From Candidatus Moraniibacteriota bacterium (GTDB lineage: Bacteria > Patescibacteriota > Minisyncoccia > Moranbacterales > UBA1568), in the NCBI GenBank assembly GCA_018062205.1, contig JAGOSP010000010.1:1-40539 (forward strand): DNA of 40,539 bases, given 5' to 3'. A model generated the notes under the pieces. It did no database searches. It had not been told where the DNA came from and saw only the letters and a program-made list of their open reading frames with translations. Both the position numbers and the translations under genes were made by a program. Of this stretch, positions 4,269-12,373 are shown in pieces. How positions within the stretch are numbered: the first letter of the stretch is position 1; the number at the start of each line of letters is the position of its first letter.

Positions 4269-5852
4269 CTAGAGATCGTTTCCTGAATACGACAGGTCAA
4301 AGCTTTTATTAATGAGTGGGAAGTCCGGAACAATATCACGGGTGAGCGCATGTGGTACCACTTGCCAATTAATGAAGGATGGATCGCGCACCTTGACCCG
4401 ATCGAGCTTGCCGTTCGACCCTGTTGCAACAAAAGTCACGATATCCCCACGCCAGCCCTCAACCATGCCTAAGGCCATACGATTTGCCGGAAGCGCTCCA
4501 AGCGGAGTCTTAAGTGATGAGTTTTCAAAAGGAAGCAATGCCAACACCTGATTGAGAATACGAAATGACTGATAAACTTCTTTGATACGAACCAGAAAAC
4601 GAGCATGCACATCACCATACTCTTCAGTAGCAACAGCAAATTGCACTGCCTCATAGGCTGCATACGGAAAATCCACTCGTGCATCCATCGCTTTCCCAAG
4701 GGCCCGAGCGGGTACCCCGACTACACCGTAATCATCCGCAATCTGCTTCTCAAGACGACCTGTTTCTTTTAATCGGTTGTACAATGAATCAGAATCTTTG
4801 GCAATGGTAATAACTTCCTTGAAATCAGTCTCTAGTAACTCAAGATCATCTGCCAAGTCATCTGCCAAGGTTTCTTCGATATCACGATTCACACCACCAA
4901 AGATAATCATCCCTCGCAGAAAACGACTCCCAGAAATACGCTCATTCCACTGCATGATACGCTCACGCAAGCGTGCGCCATGACTCCCGCCAAAAGAGAA
5001 TCCCGTATCCAGCATGATGAATCCAATATCATTGAAATGATTTGCTAACCGTTCGAGTTCCGCACACACCATACGAATCAGCTTGGCTCGCTCCGGAAGG
5101 ACTCCTTCAGACAATGTCTCTACGGCCTGAGTAAAAGCAAGTGCGTGATGTACAGAACTGTCCCCTGAAATATGCTCTGCCAAAGACAATGTTTTTTCAA
5201 GAGGGAGTGTTTCAAAAAGTTTCTCTGTTCCCTTGTGAACATACCCGAGCTCTGCCTCAAACTTGATGATTTCTTCCCCCAAGACACTGAAACGAAAATG
5301 TCCCGGTTCAATAATACCCGCGTGTACCGGTCCCACTGGAATTTGATAAATACCCTCCCCAAGAACCCCCTGAACCTCGGTAATTGTGTCTTCTGTTTGC
5401 AATGGAAATGAGGTATTCCAGGCGAAATCCTTGCGAAGTGGATAGAGATCTTTTGGATAATGCTGATGGAGAATAATACGAGATGGGTTTGGATGGCCAA
5501 CCGGTTCAAGTCCAAAAAAACTTTTTATCTCTTGCTCATACAAAGCGAAAGCTTGATTCACTGAAACCAGGGACGGAAAAGTAGCCGTCATAGAAGGCAC
5601 CGATAGCTCCACGGCAAAGAACACCGCTTCTTTGGGAACGGCAAAAATATATCGGATGAAAAAACGCTGGTGAGTTCGGCGTTCGTCGGTCGCCACCACT
5701 GTCTTTAATTCAAGATGCTGTTCTTCAAGTAAACTTTTCACAGCTGGTATCAGATCTTTTTCTGGTACCAAAACAATCAACATATTTGATTCTTTTCGAG
5801 ACGAGAATCGTTCGAATCCAAAGCGAGAAAGAAGTGGGTGTGTGTCATGCAT
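4269..5852 (-). CDS. Hydrogenase-like large subunit (NuoCD/HyfG-like, Ehr type) lacking NiFe cysteines
   Basis: This encodes 527 residues: a NuoC-like 30-kDa domain (about 24-150) fused to a NuoD/hydrogenase-large-subunit domain (about 170-527), the HycE/HyfG layout. Family landmarks include PVGPVHAGIIEPGHFRF and GYVHKGTEKL. In true group 4 hydrogenases the next motif is RxCGxC; here the aligned residues are HISGDS (227-232), so both Cys are Ser. The C-terminal DPCxxC motif is DPSFIN (490-495), so both remaining nickel ligands are Ser and Asn. NiFe binding is therefore not expected. SGDS in place of CGxC is known for Ehr (energy-converting hydrogenase-related) complexes, which sit between hydrogenases and complex I. 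No C-terminal maturation-peptide signature is evident. Last gene of the operon, 18 bases after its neighbour. Confidence 0.93.
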   Translation of the reverse strand: MHDTHPLLSRFGFERFSSRKESNMLIVLVPEKDLIPAVKSLLEEQHLELKTVVATDERRTHQRFFIRYIFAVPKEAVFFAVELSVPSMTATFPSLVSVNQAFALYEQEIKSFFGLEPVGHPNPSRIILHQHYPKDLYPLRKDFAWNTSFPLQTEDTITEVQGVLGEGIYQIPVGPVHAGIIEPGHFRFSVLGEEIIKFEAELGYVHKGTEKLFETLPLEKTLSLAEHISGDSSVHHALAFTQAVETLSEGVLPERAKLIRMVCAELERLANHFNDIGFIMLDTGFSFGGSHGARLRERIMQWNERISGSRFLRGMIIFGGVNRDIEETLADDLADDLELLETDFKEVITIAKDSDSLYNRLKETGRLEKQIADDYGVVGVPARALGKAMDARVDFPYAAYEAVQFAVATEEYGDVHARFLVRIKEVYQSFRILNQVLALLPFENSSLKTPLGALPANRMALGMVEGWRGDIVTFVATGSNGKLDRVKVRDPSFINWQVVPHALTRDIVPDFPLINKSFDLSYSGNDL

Positions 5853-5870: not shown

Positions 5871-7328
5871 TTATTTGAGACTAACCATAGCAGCTGCATC
5901 GTGGAATACCGCCAGAAGAGAATCGGGGAAAAAGAAACTCCCTATCAAATAGATACCTACAAGAATACAAAGCGGAACAATCGTAGAAATCTGCGCTTCA
6001 CCTCGTTCAACACCTTCAGTGAGCGGACCAAAAAGCATTGGCGATATGTGCCGAAAAAAACCATAGAATGCGAGGGCGAGGGCGATAAGTGCTATCATGA
6101 CCACCCACATGTGTGAATCGGCGCCCGAAGAAAGAATAAGAAATTTTGAGAAAAACATGCCGAATGGAGGTAGCCCAGAAATAGCCAAAAAACCAGCCAA
6201 AAACAACGCCCCGGTAATTGGCAAAGCTCGAATCACTCCCGACACATTTTCAAACTTTGTCGATCCAAAACGAAGCAGAATATTTCCCGCTGCAAGAAAG
6301 AGCAGAGTCTTTGACACGGAATGATACAAAATATGAAAGAATGCTGCCAAAGTTCCTACGCCACCAAAACCAATACCAAGGACAATAATACCCATGTGTT
6401 CAATACTTGAATAAGCAAGCAGCCGTTTGTAGCTCCGTTGGGTGAAAATAATAATTGCTGCAACAACAATTGAAGCCAATCCAAAATACATGAGTAGCGT
6501 CGAGGAAAACTCTTGGCCGATAGAAAGATCAACCAGACCCTTAAATCGCAATACGGAAACAAGAGCTACGTTTAAGAGTACACCGGAAAGTAAAGCAGAA
6601 ATTGGCGAGGGCGCTTTGCCATGAGCATCTGGAAGCCAGGTGTGCATCGGCACCAATCCAATCTTGGTACCATATCCAACCAAGACAAAGATGAACGCTA
6701 CTTTCACAACAACCGGATGAAATTCTGAAGCCGCAGCACGAAGATCGGCCCAAGTCATAATTCCTCCTCCAATAGCCTCTGCCGGTAAAGCGAGGAAAAG
6801 TAGTGTCCCGAGAAAACCAATCAGTAATCCAAGCGAGTTGATAATCAAGTACTTCCAAGCGGCTTCGGTGGCTGTTGGTTTATTATAAAAACTGATCAAG
6901 AAAGCAGTGGAAAGAGTTGTCGCTTCAATAGCTATCCACATCAATACCGGATTAGCAGCGTTTGCCGCTACCAACATAGCGAAAAGAAAGAGTTCAAACA
7001 AAATAAAGAATTGCTTAACGCGACGCGGACCGATAATATTCTTCTTTACTTCTTGTCGTAAATATCCAATTGAATAAAAAGCAACAATGCATCCCACAAT
7101 CGAAATAAGCAATGTCAACAAGAGAGAGAGAGCATCTAAGGCAAAATATTTCCCAGATACAAATGTCGCTCCAGATTCAAACATAGTAAGGATGTTTGCG
7201 CACAGCACCACGCCAATAAGCCCTGCCACCTGCACAGCACGCTCAATAATACGAATTTGAGAAGGCCGTAAAAACACAATGAAAAGAGCGGCGAGAAATG
7301 GCATGGCAATAAGGTAGGAAAGCAACAT
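5871..7328 (-). CDS. Antiporter-like membrane subunit (HyfF/NuoN-like) of the Ehr-like complex
   Basis: This encodes 485 residues with about 14 transmembrane helices, of the Mrp/NuoLMN antiporter fold. Residues used in proton transfer in complex I appear present: Glu in LMWIAIEATTLS (TM5 region), Lys in GYGTKIGLVPMHTWLP (TM7 region), Lys/Arg and His in YKRLLAYSSIEHMG (TM8 region) and Lys in SVSKTLLFLAAG (TM12 region). HAPSP-type loop residues (HGKAPSPISALLSG) are also kept. It is thus predicted to be a working ion-translocating module in the cytoplasmic membrane. It is the fifth gene of the operon. It resembles HyfF more than HyfB in length and lacks a long C-terminal extension. Confidence 0.93.
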   Translation of the reverse strand: MLLSYLIAMPFLAALFIVFLRPSQIRIIERAVQVAGLIGVVLCANILTMFESGATFVSGKYFALDALSLLLTLLISIVGCIVAFYSIGYLRQEVKKNIIGPRRVKQFFILFELFLFAMLVAANAANPVLMWIAIEATTLSTAFLISFYNKPTATEAAWKYLIINSLGLLIGFLGTLLFLALPAEAIGGGIMTWADLRAAASEFHPVVVKVAFIFVLVGYGTKIGLVPMHTWLPDAHGKAPSPISALLSGVLLNVALVSVLRFKGLVDLSIGQEFSSTLLMYFGLASIVVAAIIIFTQRSYKRLLAYSSIEHMGIIVLGIGFGGVGTLAAFFHILYHSVSKTLLFLAAGNILLRFGSTKFENVSGVIRALPITGALFLAGFLAISGLPPFGMFFSKFLILSSGADSHMWVVMIALIALALAFYGFFRHISPMLFGPLTEGVERGEAQISTIVPLCILVGIYLIGSFFFPDSLLAVFHDAAAMVSLK

Positions 7329-7338
7329 AGGGGGAAAA

Positions 7339-7995
7339 TTATTCAGTAAGACGTTTCATATCAGCAGTCGATAAAGTTCCAAATTGGCGATAGATCATAC
7401 CGAGAAAAAAGGAAGCGATCACCATCCAGATGACGATATCAAAAATCATTCCAATCTCAAGTGGTAACGGATGGCGCAAGCCGAAAAAAGCCGCAAACAA
7501 AATAATACTATTCTCAAGAGAAAGCATGCCTACCATTTGAGCGAATACCCCTCTTCTGTTAATCAAAAGAAAAATGGAAATAAATATGAGTGCGATATTG
7601 AGAGCAACCGAAACAAACGCTTGTGGATAAATAGCCGAGAGCGGCAAAAAAACTTTCGAAAAAGCAAACAATACAAGTCCCGTCAACACAAGAAGAGTTA
7701 TCGGTGTATTGAGATAATTACTCGTGCTCGAAGATCCGCTCAACTTGTGAAGAATTTTTCCAAAAAAGACTGGCGCCACGAGTACCTTCACAAAGAAAAT
7801 AATGCTCGCCACAATCATAAGACTTTTGTCATCACCAAAAAAACCAAGTAAGAAAAATGTGAGGGACACAGCAAAAGACTGGAGAGCATAGAGGCGCACC
7901 AATGAACGCGAACGTCTCACAAGATGCATGAATACAGCTGCTAAAAAAGCAACGATATCAAGGAGAAAAAATATCCCAAGAAAATTTTCAGACAT
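7339..7995 (-). CDS. HyfE-like membrane subunit of the Ehr-like complex
   Basis: This encodes 218 residues starting at MSENFLG. The upstream in-frame MLLVSM start lies deeper inside the previous gene; the chosen start overlaps that gene by eight bases. It has about six to seven hydrophobic helices and matches the HyfE family in size and position. The latter half includes LSLENSIILFAAFFGLRHPLPLEIGMIFDIV, where the Glu in LEN and the Glu in LEIG correspond to the buried acids of NuoK-like proteins that form part of the proton path. It is short on soluble loops, so it is an all-membrane connector between the NuoH-like and antiporter-like subunits. Co-directional and overlapping with its neighbours. 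Confidence 0.88.
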   Translation of the reverse strand: MSENFLGIFFLLDIVAFLAAVFMHLVRRSRSLVRLYALQSFAVSLTFFLLGFFGDDKSLMIVASIIFFVKVLVAPVFFGKILHKLSGSSSTSNYLNTPITLLVLTGLVLFAFSKVFLPLSAIYPQAFVSVALNIALIFISIFLLINRRGVFAQMVGMLSLENSIILFAAFFGLRHPLPLEIGMIFDIVIWMVIASFFLGMIYRQFGTLSTADMKRLTE

Positions 7996-8965
7996 AGGCG
8001 CCAACATAGATACCAATAGCAATCACCGAAAGGATAAACGAGGTAAATAATACATCAGGCAAACGAAAAATACGAAATTTCGCCATCAGTGATTCTACTA
8101 AGGCAATCATCAAGGCAAAAACCAAAACCTTCACAGCAAAAATAGCGGTGACAAATACAAGCTCCATGCCGAAACCTGTCGTTTCTGAAACCCCAAAAGG
8201 AAAAAAAAGATTTGCTCCCAGCGCAACAAAAATCATCAATTTATTAGCCGCTGCCCATTCCATAAGTGCAAGTCTTTTCCCGGAAAGATCCAGGATCATC
8301 GCCTCATGAATCATTGTGAGCTCCAAATGAGTAGCTGGGTTATCAAACGGAAACCGGGCATTCTCCGCAAGCAACACCAGAAAAAATCCGATGAAAGCAA
8401 TGAAAAGAGGAAGCAGCGTTAGTAGAGGAAGATTATTCATGCCAGAAGAAACCATATCCATAACATTCCCCGTTTGTGTCGCAATTGAAACCGCAAATAG
8501 TGCGAAGAAAAAACCACCTTCGGCAAGCGCTGATACCATCATTTCTCGACTGGAACCAAAGCCACCAAAAGCACTCCCTTGATCCATACCGATCAAAACC
8601 AGAAGAAACGTTGTGAGAGCGAAAAGATATACAATAACAATAAAATCAGAAACTGCACCTAAAGAGAAAACTCCCCATTCACCCAAAACAAGCTCTGGAA
8701 TCACTGAAGTTGCCAGGGGTACCGAAGCACCAAGGAGGACGGTAATTGCGAAGATAAGATATGGAAAATAGCGCGTCACCCAAGAAGCCTCGTTCGAAAT
8801 AATTTCATCTTTTTGAAAAAGTTTTCGAAGATCGCGGTATGGCTGCCAAATATCAGCTCCCACACGATTTTGCATCAGTGCTTTTATCTTTCTAATAACA
8901 CCAATAAGAAGCGGTGAAATGACCGGGACAGAAATGATTTGTATGAGAAAAAATAATGTATCCAT
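7988..8965 (-). CDS. HyfC/HycD/NuoH-like membrane anchor subunit
   Basis: This encodes 325 residues and about eight helices. The start at MDTLFF (8965) is chosen because it lies four bases after the stop of the preceding gene; the longer frame would overlap it. Family landmarks are present: IKALMQNRVGADIWQPYRDL near the N-terminus, and the acidic cytoplasmic loop LAENARFPFDNPATHLELT with the conserved Glu and Asp residues, followed by MIHEAM. NuoH-type subunits hold the peripheral arm to the membrane and form the first part of the coupling channel, and these acids are intact. It fits the usual position between the HyfB-like and HyfE-like genes. Confidence 0.93.
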   Translation of the reverse strand: MDTLFFLIQIISVPVISPLLIGVIRKIKALMQNRVGADIWQPYRDLRKLFQKDEIISNEASWVTRYFPYLIFAITVLLGASVPLATSVIPELVLGEWGVFSLGAVSDFIVIVYLFALTTFLLVLIGMDQGSAFGGFGSSREMMVSALAEGGFFFALFAVSIATQTGNVMDMVSSGMNNLPLLTLLPLFIAFIGFFLVLLAENARFPFDNPATHLELTMIHEAMILDLSGKRLALMEWAAANKLMIFVALGANLFFPFGVSETTGFGMELVFVTAIFAVKVLVFALMIALVESLMAKFRIFRLPDVLFTSFILSVIAIGIYVGAYV

Positions 8966-8969
8966 ACGG

Positions 8970-11042
8970 TTATCGTATCGTGAAAATGAGGAGAGCAATA
9001 AGCGTTACAAAAACATACAACATATAGATGTTCACGTTTCCACTTTGGATTTTTTTTACTCGATCAGAAAAATATCCGATTGCGTCTGTAATTGGATGAA
9101 AAACATAGTTTCGATATACATCAAAAAAATCAGTTTTCACGCTCTGAACCGAAGTAAAATAACGTGTCTCGGCGTCACAATACTCCACATCGGTTTGTTT
9201 GGTTGGGCGGAGAATCCCTCGAAAAATAATAACCAATGAGCGAGAGAAGCTTGTCGCTGTAATCTGCATTTTTGGAGAAAGTGGCATCCCACAATCCCAA
9301 GTTGGAGCAAATATGACCTTGCGCTTACGGGTCAACCATCCAACCGTGGCACCAATAATAGCTATAAAAACAACCAGGGCTACTGCTGTTCCGTGTGCAG
9401 GAAGAATACCTGAAAAATTTTCACTCATGCCCATGAACTGCAGGTATGGGAAAACAAGAGTTTCTCCGCCAGCTCCAAAAACAAGACTCGCTACAATCCC
9501 CACAAGAAAAGAGACCACGAAGGGGGCACCAATTCCCATAACAATAGTCAGCACCGCAAGTACAAACATTGGAAGATGTACCAACCAATTCAATTTTTCT
9601 TTTTTTGGTTTCTGTTCCCGGGGATGACGATCTCTCCGTCGTCCAAGGAAAGTAATGCCAAATGCTTTTGCAAAACAAGCCATGGCTAAGCCACCAGTAA
9701 ACGAAAGACTCGCGATACTGACAAGAAAAGTCATTTTTACCAGGAGACTTGATGCTGCTACGCCAACAAAAAGCGATTGAAAAATAAGCCATTCGCTTGC
9801 AAATCCATTAAACGGCGGGAAAGCAGCAATAGCCAGAGATCCAATCAGAAAGAAAAATGCAGAATAAGGAAGAATATGAATAAGCCCCCCATAAGATTCC
9901 ATGTTTCGCGTCCCTGTTGCGCCCACAACTACCCCCGAAGTTAAAAACAGAAGTGATTTAAAAATTGCATGGTTAACCGTATGAAAAAGTGCCGCTGCCA
10001 AAGCGAAGACAAAAAAATCTTGTAGGCCATACCCCGCAAACACAAGTGCCGCACCAACACCTAATAAGATGATCCCGATGTGTTCAATACTTGAATAAGC
10101 AAGCAGCCTTTTGATGTCGTGTTCCGATAAAGCATACAAAACACCAAGGAGCGAAGAAATGGCACCAAGAGTAAGAATAACTAATCCCCACTCTAATGGC
10201 GCACCAGGGAAAAAATCAAAGAAAAAACGAATAATCATAAAAATGGCTGTCTTGATCATGACACCAGACATAAGAGCCGAAACATGAGAAGGGGCAGCCG
10301 GGTGCGCTTCTGGCAACCAAATATGCAATGGAATAATACCAGCCTTTGTACCGAATCCAATCAATACCGAACCAAAAAGTACCCCCTGCCAAACGGGTGA
10401 GAGATTTACTAAGCCAATGAGTCGCCATGTATCAAAATCAAATGAACCAGTTGCTTTGTAAGCCAAGAAAAACGCACACGCGATAAACACCATTCCTAAT
10501 TGCGTCATAAGTAAATACAAGAATCCAGCCCGAATATTTCGAGCTTCTTCTCGATCAAATATGACCAGAAAATAAGAGGCAATCGACATGAGCTCCCAAG
10601 CAAAAAGAAAAAATAAAGCATGATTGGACGACACGACAAGCACCATACCCAAAAGAAAAACATTATAGAAAAATCCAAAAATTCCAAGATTATATTTCCC
10701 AATAAAGTGTTTCTGGTAACTCACTCCAAACCAAGAGACTAGGGCGGCTACGCTTCCGATCAATCCCAAAAAGAATGCGGACAAACCATCTATATGAAAA
10801 GAAAAAGCTACATCAGGAAACGGCGATCCAAACGAGAGAGCTTTCCCTTCTCCATTCAAAAAGACTCCAACCGAAAAAACTAACAGCAAAATAGATGACA
10901 AAAAAGCCCCCAGATGAGCTACCCAGTTAGCTGTTTTTCCACCATCACGCAGTTGCCATCCGACAATCAGTGAAAACAACGCTGAACCAGCGTACATAGC
11001 AAGTACAACTACGAATACATCAGTTTGAAAAAATATATCCAT
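8970..11042 (-). CDS. Antiporter-like membrane subunit (HyfB/NuoL-like) of the Ehr-like complex
   Basis: This encodes about 690 residues with about 14 core helices and an extra C-terminal region ending in a helix, as in HyfB. Key residues are present: Glu in FAWELMSIASYF (TM5 region), Lys in GFGTKAGIIPLHIWLP (TM7 region), KRLLAYSSIEHIG (TM8 region) and Lys in NHAIFKSLLFLTSG (TM12 region). EAHPAAPSHVSALMSG is the usual loop. The start is uncertain: a TTG at 11054 overlaps the stop of the small-subunit gene, while the ATG at 11042 has GAGAG upstream; I prefer the ATG. A basic loop (GRRRDRHPREQKPKKEK, near residue 480) faces the cytoplasm. Likely a proton- or sodium-translocating module. Confidence 0.93.
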   Translation of the reverse strand: MDIFFQTDVFVVVLAMYAGSALFSLIVGWQLRDGGKTANWVAHLGAFLSSILLLVFSVGVFLNGEGKALSFGSPFPDVAFSFHIDGLSAFFLGLIGSVAALVSWFGVSYQKHFIGKYNLGIFGFFYNVFLLGMVLVVSSNHALFFLFAWELMSIASYFLVIFDREEARNIRAGFLYLLMTQLGMVFIACAFFLAYKATGSFDFDTWRLIGLVNLSPVWQGVLFGSVLIGFGTKAGIIPLHIWLPEAHPAAPSHVSALMSGVMIKTAIFMIIRFFFDFFPGAPLEWGLVILTLGAISSLLGVLYALSEHDIKRLLAYSSIEHIGIILLGVGAALVFAGYGLQDFFVFALAAALFHTVNHAIFKSLLFLTSGVVVGATGTRNMESYGGLIHILPYSAFFFLIGSLAIAAFPPFNGFASEWLIFQSLFVGVAASSLLVKMTFLVSIASLSFTGGLAMACFAKAFGITFLGRRRDRHPREQKPKKEKLNWLVHLPMFVLAVLTIVMGIGAPFVVSFLVGIVASLVFGAGGETLVFPYLQFMGMSENFSGILPAHGTAVALVVFIAIIGATVGWLTRKRKVIFAPTWDCGMPLSPKMQITATSFSRSLVIIFRGILRPTKQTDVEYCDAETRYFTSVQSVKTDFFDVYRNYVFHPITDAIGYFSDRVKKIQSGNVNIYMLYVFVTLIALLIFTIR

Positions 11043-11050
11043 AAACACTC

Positions 11051-11614
11051 TCAATGATGAGGATGATCGGTATCGTCTGATTCTTTCTGCTTTTCAGACT
11101 GCTCCAAATCATGAAACAAACCTAGAAGTGACATCAAAATTTGTCGCGGTGAAGGAGGATCCCCAGGAATGCCAAAATCTACTGGGATAATATCAGAGAC
11201 TTGATTGACAACTGCATAGGAATCTTTAAAAACACTCCCTTGAATAGCGCCATCGCCAAGAGCAACAACCAAACAGGGTTTCGGCATGGCTTCGTATGTA
11301 TGCCGTAAGCCCTGAATCATGTTTCGAGAGACCGGCCCAGAAACAAAAAGTGCATCTGCATGCCGAGGAGAAGCAACAAAACGAATACCAAAACGCTCAA
11401 TATCATAGTAGACATTTCCCAGCGCCGTAAGCTCTTGTTCTTCGGCGTTCGATGAGCCGGCAGCGACACTCCGAATAGCAAACGACCCACCGAAAAGTCT
11501 TTTCACGGAAGCAGATACTTTTTCACCTACAACCTCGAATGGAGCGTCTGTCAATTCTTCAAAAGACAAAGCGAGGCGGGGAGTTTTTCGGATTTTATTC
11601 AGCATTTGAAACAT
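11051..11614 (-). CDS. Hydrogenase small-subunit-like protein (NuoB/HycG-like, Ehr type) without iron-sulphur ligands
   Basis: This encodes 187 residues, first gene of the operon. The NuoB/HycG fold is clear from YYDIERFGIRFVASPRHAD, LFVSGPVSRNM, VVALGD, VFKDSYAV and IPGDPPSPRQIL. In the family the cluster is held by GSCNGCE, GDC and GCPP. Here these read GSSNAEE (53-59), GDG (120-122) and GDPP (151-154). All four ligands are replaced (Ser55, Glu58, Gly122, Asp152). The only Cys is 114, at a non-ligand position. Known Ehr complexes lose the nickel site; loss of the proximal [4Fe-4S] cluster too is unexpected to me. The fold-defining residues around each lost Cys are conserved, so the protein is unlikely to be decaying. 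A His-rich acidic tail (DDTDHPHH) ends it. The start may be 11605 instead. Confidence 0.92.
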   Translation of the reverse strand: MFQMLNKIRKTPRLALSFEELTDAPFEVVGEKVSASVKRLFGGSFAIRSVAAGSSNAEEQELTALGNVYYDIERFGIRFVASPRHADALFVSGPVSRNMIQGLRHTYEAMPKPCLVVALGDGAIQGSVFKDSYAVVNQVSDIIPVDFGIPGDPPSPRQILMSLLGLFHDLEQSEKQKESDDTDHPHH

Positions 11615-11767: not shown

Positions 11768-12373
11768 TTACGCTACCGACTGTCGCTCCTTCCAGATATG
11801 CCATACGGCCGGGAGAAAAGAAATAACAATGATCGCAAGAATGACTGGCAGTAAATACCGATCAACATCTGTAATGAGGTTTCCAAAAAGATACCCTCCC
11901 GAAGTTAATCCAACCGTCCAAAGAACAGCACCAAGGATGTTGTATGTTAAAAAACTCCGATAATTCATCCCCGCAATACCAGCCACAATTGGTCCAAAAG
12001 TTCGTACAATCGGAATAAAACGAGCTAGCATAATTGTCTTTGCCCCATGTTTTTCATAAAAGGATTGTGCTCGCCGTACATGTGCCTTGTGAAAGAAAAA
12101 TGAATCATCACGTTCAAAAAGTTTTGGGCCAACTTTTTTCCCAAACCAATATCCAACCATATTTCCTGTGATGGCCGCAACCAAAAGCACAACTATCAAA
12201 ATCGGCAATACAAACAATCCTTGCGCGGCAAGCAAACCAGCAACAAAAAGCAAGCTATCTCCAGGAAGAAAAAATCCAAGGAAAAGCCCTGTTTCAGCAA
12301 AGACAATAAAAAACAATCCGATCAGCCCCACTGTCTGAATAAGTTCTCCCAAATCAACACCAAAATAATGCAT
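11768..12373 (-). CDS. DedA family membrane protein
   Basis: This encodes 201 residues of the DedA/VTT (SNARE-associated) family. Landmarks are FAETGLFLGFFLPGDSLLF (acidic Glu27 and Gly38-Asp39) and RFIPIVRTFGPIVAG, the conserved Arg- and Pro-containing motif in the second re-entrant loop. It has about five hydrophobic segments and a basic C-terminus. DedA proteins act in the cytoplasmic membrane; several have been shown to flip phospholipids or undecaprenyl phosphate and to depend on proton motive force. That would suit the glycan genes later in the window, but the link is inferred. The gene is 27 bases downstream of the adaptor gene, with no clear SD, so it probably shares that transcript. 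Confidence 0.93.
   Translation of the reverse strand: MHYFGVDLGELIQTVGLIGLFFIVFAETGLFLGFFLPGDSLLFVAGLLAAQGLFVLPILIVVLLVAAITGNMVGYWFGKKVGPKLFERDDSFFFHKAHVRRAQSFYEKHGAKTIMLARFIPIVRTFGPIVAGIAGMNYRSFLTYNILGAVLWTVGLTSGGYLFGNLITDVDRYLLPVILAIIVISFLPAVWHIWKERQSVA

Follow-up and report, generated by a model that had tools for sequence, protein, structure and literature searches.

Introduction

A central open question about complex I is by what mechanism redox reactions of its peripheral arm power the transport of protons through its membrane arm. A natural and conserved relative that has the core architecture and lacks a redox centre would separate redox chemistry from proton transport. A second question, posed in PMC8080830, is why CPR bacteria lacking a respiratory chain or an obvious source of proton motive force keep F1Fo ATP synthase. 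The Ehr complexes described below bear on this question as well, and since in some of the lineages their genes are neighbours of the atp operon, and in one case stand within it, a partnership with F1Fo is testable.

Ehr is a described class (PMC7304191; PMC6349859; PMC10284858; PMC4378227), with the same subunit set as the complex encoded in the window (the whole stretch of 40,539 nucleotides analysed here, from a Candidatus Moraniibacteriota bacterium) and with the CxxC pairs of the large subunit likewise replaced (SGDS / SYSG). Typical Ehr, such as those of the Rhizobium, Methylococcales and Marichromatium loci, keep the four ligand Cys of the small subunit, whereas the window type lacks this set; the window type also mostly has the gene order B-L-H-E-F-G rather than L-H-E-F-G-B, and its operon is frequently linked to atp genes. 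For CPR bacteria, the main text of Jaffe et al. (2020) describes a monophyletic Ehr large subunit without metal-binding Cys and an inability to use H2 (PMC7304191), and this clade very probably overlaps the family of the window. That main text deals with the large subunit only, the small-subunit cluster and a linkage to ATP synthase being unmentioned in it. No description of small-subunit cluster loss or of atp linkage of Ehr was found in the main texts of the open-access literature, to which most subscription papers, including the original Ehr papers, do not belong. The initial annotation had known of no described complex I relative with the combination of features seen here; this has to be narrowed, because the Ehr class and the loss of large-subunit Cys in CPR bacteria (PMC7304191) are known, and it stands for the loss of the small-subunit cluster, which together with the ATP synthase linkage is what is new.

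Hyf and Hyc of E. coli have subunits homologous to those of the window complex, but they carry ferredoxin-like subunits (HyfA, HyfH / HycB, HycF), a [NiFe] site and a small-subunit [4Fe-4S] cluster, none of which is present in the window complex; neither the four [NiFe] Cys nor the ferredoxin-like subunit of group 4 [NiFe] hydrogenases was found in the window. Respiratory complex I (NuoBCDHKLN core) contains the homologous core module, of which the window complex keeps the large subunit and, as predicted, the NuoB fold. The window complex differs in having no N2 or other clusters, no NADH module and no NuoI, the respective ligands and subunits being absent from the operon. In possible mode of action the comparison is with Mrp cation/proton antiporters, which assemble antiporter-like subunits of the complex I kind without redox centres. 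Mrp is not known to have homologues of NuoH, NuoB or NuoCD, whereas the window complex keeps a NuoH-like subunit and the whole peripheral core. Instead of the genes mrpA-G of Mrp, which has no peripheral arm, NuoH-, NuoB- and NuoCD-like genes are found in the operon, and the window genome has only two PF00361 antiporter-like genes, both of them in the Ehr operon.

Subunits of the operon and their cofactor sites

The operon consists of six genes on the minus strand in the order B, L, H, E, F, G. B (11051..11614, minus strand, 187 aa) encodes a NuoB/HycG/HyfI-like small subunit in which no [4Fe-4S] ligand is left, as assigned by Pfam (PF01058, E 8e-21), PDB and predicted fold, and its best PDB sequence relative is MbhJ of membrane-bound hydrogenase (6cfw_J). 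An AlphaFold2 model with a mean pLDDT of 84, built on 27 sequences of the family, superimposed on 6cfw_J with 2.1 A rmsd over 137 columns, so the fold of the cluster-free B is predicted to be retained. Read against its relatives, B has S55, E58, G122 and D152 at the former ligand positions, i.e., none of the four ligands. In the alignment, residues 55-58 (S-N-A-E; 11441..11452, minus strand) stand in the place of the former CxxC, residues 121-122 (D-G; 11249..11254, minus strand) include the third former Cys position at 122, and D152 (11159..11161, minus strand) occupies the fourth, where GCPP has become GDPP. The initial annotation had claimed a small subunit without all four cluster-binding Cys (GSSNAEE / GDG / GDPP), with intact motifs beside the lost ligands (YDIERFGIRFVASPRHAD, SYAV and PPSP), and both points were confirmed for this minus-strand gene. 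It was also right that the sole Cys of the protein, C114, is not a ligand, the ligand positions being 55, 58, 122 and 152.

The large subunit G (HyfG/HycE (NuoCD)-like; 4269..5852, minus strand) has both [NiFe] CxxC motifs replaced. Alignment to HycE places residues 229-232 (S-G-D-S; 5157..5168, minus strand) at the N-terminal motif and residues 521-524 (S-Y-S-G; 4281..4292, minus strand) at the C-terminal one, so that S229, S232, S521 and G524 stand where the four [NiFe] Cys have gone. The predicted fold of G is closest to HycE (7z0s_E), and like that of B it is predicted to be retained.

The other four genes encode the membrane arm. The start of L (HyfB/NuoL-like antiporter-like subunit; 8970..11054, minus strand; Pfam and homology) overlaps the end of B, and its proton-path residues E154, K237, K268, H358, H362 and K366 are present. 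H (HyfC/NuoH-like; 7988..8998, minus strand; Pfam and residue conservation) has the membrane-facing acids E160, E212, D219, E226 and E232, and F (HyfF/NuoN-like antiporter-like subunit; 5871..7328, minus strand; Pfam and homology) has the ion-path residues E135, K222, H229 and K340. E (7339..8022, minus strand; Pfam and homology) is HyfE-like, with a NuoK-like C-terminal half.

A scan of all six frames of the window for the ferredoxin-type motif CxxCxxCxxxC gave no match, in agreement with the earlier statement that the operon has no ferredoxin-like subunit, and nearly all operons scanned had none inside, with few motif matches listed. On these scans a hidden ferredoxin subunit was rejected. 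With G lacking the [NiFe] Cys, B lacking the cluster Cys and the ferredoxin motif missing, there is no predicted redox site in the encoded complex.

One cluster in the clustering of flanking genes was a DedA-family gene (VTT domain), which immediately precedes the Ehr operon at six loci of the window's family: the window (11768-12373, minus strand), L124, L125, L127, L128 and L129.

Distribution of cluster-free Ehr and number of losses

A contig scan for homologous loci gave 80 loci with names. Among CPR bacteria, cluster-free loci were present in Moran-, Magasanik-, Kaiser-, Staskawicz-, Uhr-, Falkow- and Levybacteria; they also occurred in some MAGs that bear the names Dadabacteria, Syntrophus, Actinomycetes and Thermoleophilia, although these labels may reflect binning. 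One cluster-free Ehr operon belongs to the record of an actinobacterial isolate, Cryobacterium sp. Y50 (L060, NZ_PJJM01000102.1), where its GC is 0.51 against 0.64 in the flanks, a deviation that makes acquisition by horizontal transfer likely; this copy offers possible laboratory access to cluster-free Ehr. A distinct cluster-free Ehr with DTDN at the ligand positions was found in Methanosarcina-labelled, Euryarchaeota and Dehalococcoidia MAGs (L090, L096, L107, L089), and the gene order of the Methanosarcina-labelled and Dehalococcoidia loci is L-H-E-F-G-B. The archaeal-labelled operons of this group have a higher GC than their flanks. Loci with a Cys-containing small subunit came from Rhizobium, Methylococcales, Marichromatium and others, plus the CPR locus L141. 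Since the SGDS/SYSG-type large subunit is common to the Cys-containing and the cluster-free loci, all of them are Ehr.

Several further variants were observed. L141 (G232:C25, Patescibacteria) has an Ehr-type large subunit and all four small-subunit Cys intact, with a nucleotide-sugar dehydrogenase-like gene between F and G. L170 (G643:C4), a divergent Patescibacteria Ehr with the order L-H-F-G-B, reads GGDNSAE / CGTD / CGNPP and represents another cluster-free type. In a second CPR clade (L056, L066, L073, L132, L134, L142 and others), H and E are apparently fused in a frame of ~530 aa, and in L062 the F gene is apparently duplicated, with copies before and after G. L040 and L041 (G166 and G137), of the same class, have a complex I-type NuoB with GAC/GCPP, and true complex I is apparently present in some small genomes.

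Trees were built from B+G+H (1000 columns, ligand columns removed) and from B+G+H+L+F, with E. coli Hyf/Hyc as the outgroup, relative to which the placement of Ehr had a branch support of 100 in both. Both trees need three state changes, in the window clade, the second CPR clade and the Methanosarcina/Dehalococcoidia clade. In AU tests, a single origin of the loss was not rejected on three genes (p 0.31) and was weakly rejected on five genes under a simpler model without mixture (p 0.023), and the two CPR clades as one group were not rejected (p 0.17). From these results, the cluster is read as having been lost one to three times.

Conservation of the loss

The small subunit has homologues in 10 of the 28 genomes of the family and in 33 of the 131 genomes of the order. 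Intact ligands were missing in all 31 order homologues read (one only partly), so the homologue check proposed earlier came out in favour of conserved substitutions. In cluster-free rows, position 55 is S, T or D, position 58 is E, C, A, T or P, position 122 is G, D or E, and position 152 is D, N or E; Cys at position 55 occurs in none of these rows versus 100% of Cys-containing rows. Cys 58 survives in 23/64 cluster-free rows, the window not being one of them.

Compared with its genus mates, the window gave a dN/dS of 0.03-0.07 for B and of 0.02-0.06 for the other five genes, rough values because synonymous sites are near saturation, and the dN/dS of cluster-free B was comparable to that of Cys-containing Ehr pairs. 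In cluster-free rows, conservation of the ion-path Glu, Lys and His residues is 100% at most positions of L, F and H and never falls below 90%, and the gene order BLHEFG is kept in 47/54 full cluster-free loci. Since the replacements at all ligand positions of B and G are conserved in dozens of independent genomes, sequencing error and decay, both named beforehand as possible refutations, are excluded as their source, consistent with the low dN/dS. That the operon is nevertheless a decaying or functionless Ehr remnant is very improbable. The lost cofactor sites would fit such a state, as would the shortened L gene in L068 and a 2026 paper that calls the Ehr of Geobacter nonfunctional (PMC13194489), but the reading frames are intact, dN/dS is low in all six genes, the gene order is largely kept, and the isolate copy with its deviating GC suggests transfer followed by retention.

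Binding of an iron-sulphur cluster through other residues was looked for as well. Scoring of B, G, L, H and F over the cluster-free rows gave a single conserved Cys column, at residue 588 of L, which is also present in E. coli HyfB and HycC, and the E subunit of the window has zero Cys; alternative iron-sulphur ligands were therefore rejected. The loss of the cofactor sites is thus well supported. The proposal of a redox-cofactor-free complex under selection, made in the initial annotation, is supported as far as the cofactor sites are concerned, by the conserved loss, the low dN/dS, the missing alternative Cys set and the retained proton-path residues, with the caveat that part of the family keeps Cys 58.

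The former cluster site

D121 of B is invariant in cluster-free rows versus 71% in Cys-containing rows. Of positions 58 and 122, exactly one is acidic in 63/64 cluster-free rows, some of which are near-duplicates: 29 rows have E58/G122, and 34 have another residue at 58 with D or E at 122. D231 of G is likewise invariant in cluster-free rows. What stands in place of the cluster looks, in these alignments, like a conserved carboxylate site. The exchange between 58 and 122 corresponds to only two to three independent switches on the tree, too few for a sign test.

An alternative is that the complex has remained an ion pump driven by redox reactions and holds its cofactor otherwise, i.e., a quinone, flavin or nicotinamide in a cavity of the large or small subunit, or a metal in the acidic site. 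This explanation is unlikely. In its favour, the soluble arm is under strong selection, D121 and D231 are invariant, one carboxylate of the 58/122 pair is nearly always retained, and coupling to formate dehydrogenase has been proposed for Ehr of other organisms (PMC6349859). It is countered by the lack of a conserved ligand set for an Fe-S cluster, by an operon without an electron-entry subunit, by flanking-gene clustering that gave no conserved oxidoreductase, and by the small number of switches behind the carboxylate exchange. The soluble arm is as strongly conserved as the membrane arm, which counts against pure Mrp-type transport, as this does not obviously need such an arm and Mrp works without it; an organic or mononuclear cofactor may therefore support chemistry in the peripheral arm.

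Linkage to ATP synthase and energy context

Flanking genes were clustered across the loci to find conserved neighbours. Instead of a conserved redox neighbour, which was rejected on this result, the clustering yielded F1Fo genes; these precede operons of the cluster-free type, and no Cys-containing operon had them upstream. A mixed cluster of large ATPase/sensor-type genes was also obtained. On the same strand and 1.8-4.5 kb upstream of B, atpG was found in 15/24 informative genomes of the order; these 15 belong to two families, so the adjacency is partly inherited and does not represent 15 independent events. Among Cys-containing loci, atp adjacency was seen in 0/39, with only ~2 kb of upstream sequence for loci of the order LHEFGB.

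Close arrangements were found at L073, where atpB to atpC are followed by B after ~30 bp (15-31 bp from the end of the atpC match to B in L072/L073, 15 bp in L072), and at L057, where this distance is 108 bp. At L139:60-13952 (G285:C16), the six Ehr genes are inserted into the atp operon, with atpG on one side and atpD on the other, all on one strand and apparently as a 14-gene unit; Pfam confirmed B, G and the neighbouring atp genes. Within the family of the window, atp adjacency was found in 0/6 informative genomes, and in the window genome the Ehr operon and the atp genes are on different contigs.

Operons joined to the atp cluster in several lineages, including the one between atpG and atpD, would be expected if the complex were an accessory or regulator of F1Fo ATP synthase, e.g., a proton leak or coupling module, and not an independent transporter. 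This is unlikely, as many cluster-free loci, that of the window genome included, are unlinked to atp, and full translocation machinery with two antiporter subunits exceeds the needs of a regulator.

The c-subunit of the window genome (PGIGLG ... FTEA) and those of its relatives lack the Na+ ligands of Na+-type rings, so the F1Fo, judged by these motifs, is probably H+-coupled. Haem-copper oxidase and H+-pyrophosphatase gave no match in the window genome, whose completeness of 97% makes gene absences likely and not certain.

Proposed function

All predicted metal and iron-sulphur sites are gone, yet conservation is strict across many Patescibacteria lineages with tiny genomes and atp genes are often adjacent, which indicates that the complex probably moves protons or other ions without electron chemistry. 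The best reading is a redox-inactive Ehr-type, Mrp-like secondary ion transporter partnered with F1Fo, and we regard its chances as about even. Transport activity, the exchanged ion and its direction, the absence of a cofactor in the real protein and physical contact with F1Fo are what we infer here. In this transporter, the peripheral arm could assemble neither a [NiFe] site nor its single [4Fe-4S] site, and no electron-entry subunit is present; the arm would stay as a structural or gating cap, which may be fixed or may act as a conformational or protonic gate. The membrane arm, with its NuoH-like, HyfE-like and two antiporter-like subunits, would be an intact ion translocator, most likely exchanging protons of the proton motive force for another cation, or else allowing regulated proton passage. 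F1Fo would be the energetic partner in a non-respiring fermenter: it may spend ATP on pumping protons that the complex then uses, or the complex may turn a cation gradient into a proton gradient from which F1Fo makes ATP.

A more far-reaching version, which we offer tentatively and consider possible, is an electron-free complex I-type machine in which the [4Fe-4S] site has been rebuilt as a conserved carboxylate site, and which would work as one unit with the H+-ATP synthase, functionally and perhaps also physically, to convert ion gradients into one another in cells without a respiratory chain.

It could also be that a separate redox protein docks onto the peripheral arm with its cluster at the interface, the complex being cofactor-free only by itself. 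Other group 4 complexes do get electrons from separate partners, and the window genome encodes a soluble group 3-type hydrogenase (L002), but an arm without an N2-type cluster or a [NiFe] site has no acceptor and no conserved partner gene is located nearby, which makes this explanation improbable.

As an observation on the genome itself, the soluble NiFe hydrogenase at L002 (G000:C13) has a short small subunit (171 aa) and intact Cys motifs in the large subunit, and it resembles the CPR group 3b-like hyd2 of PMC7304191.
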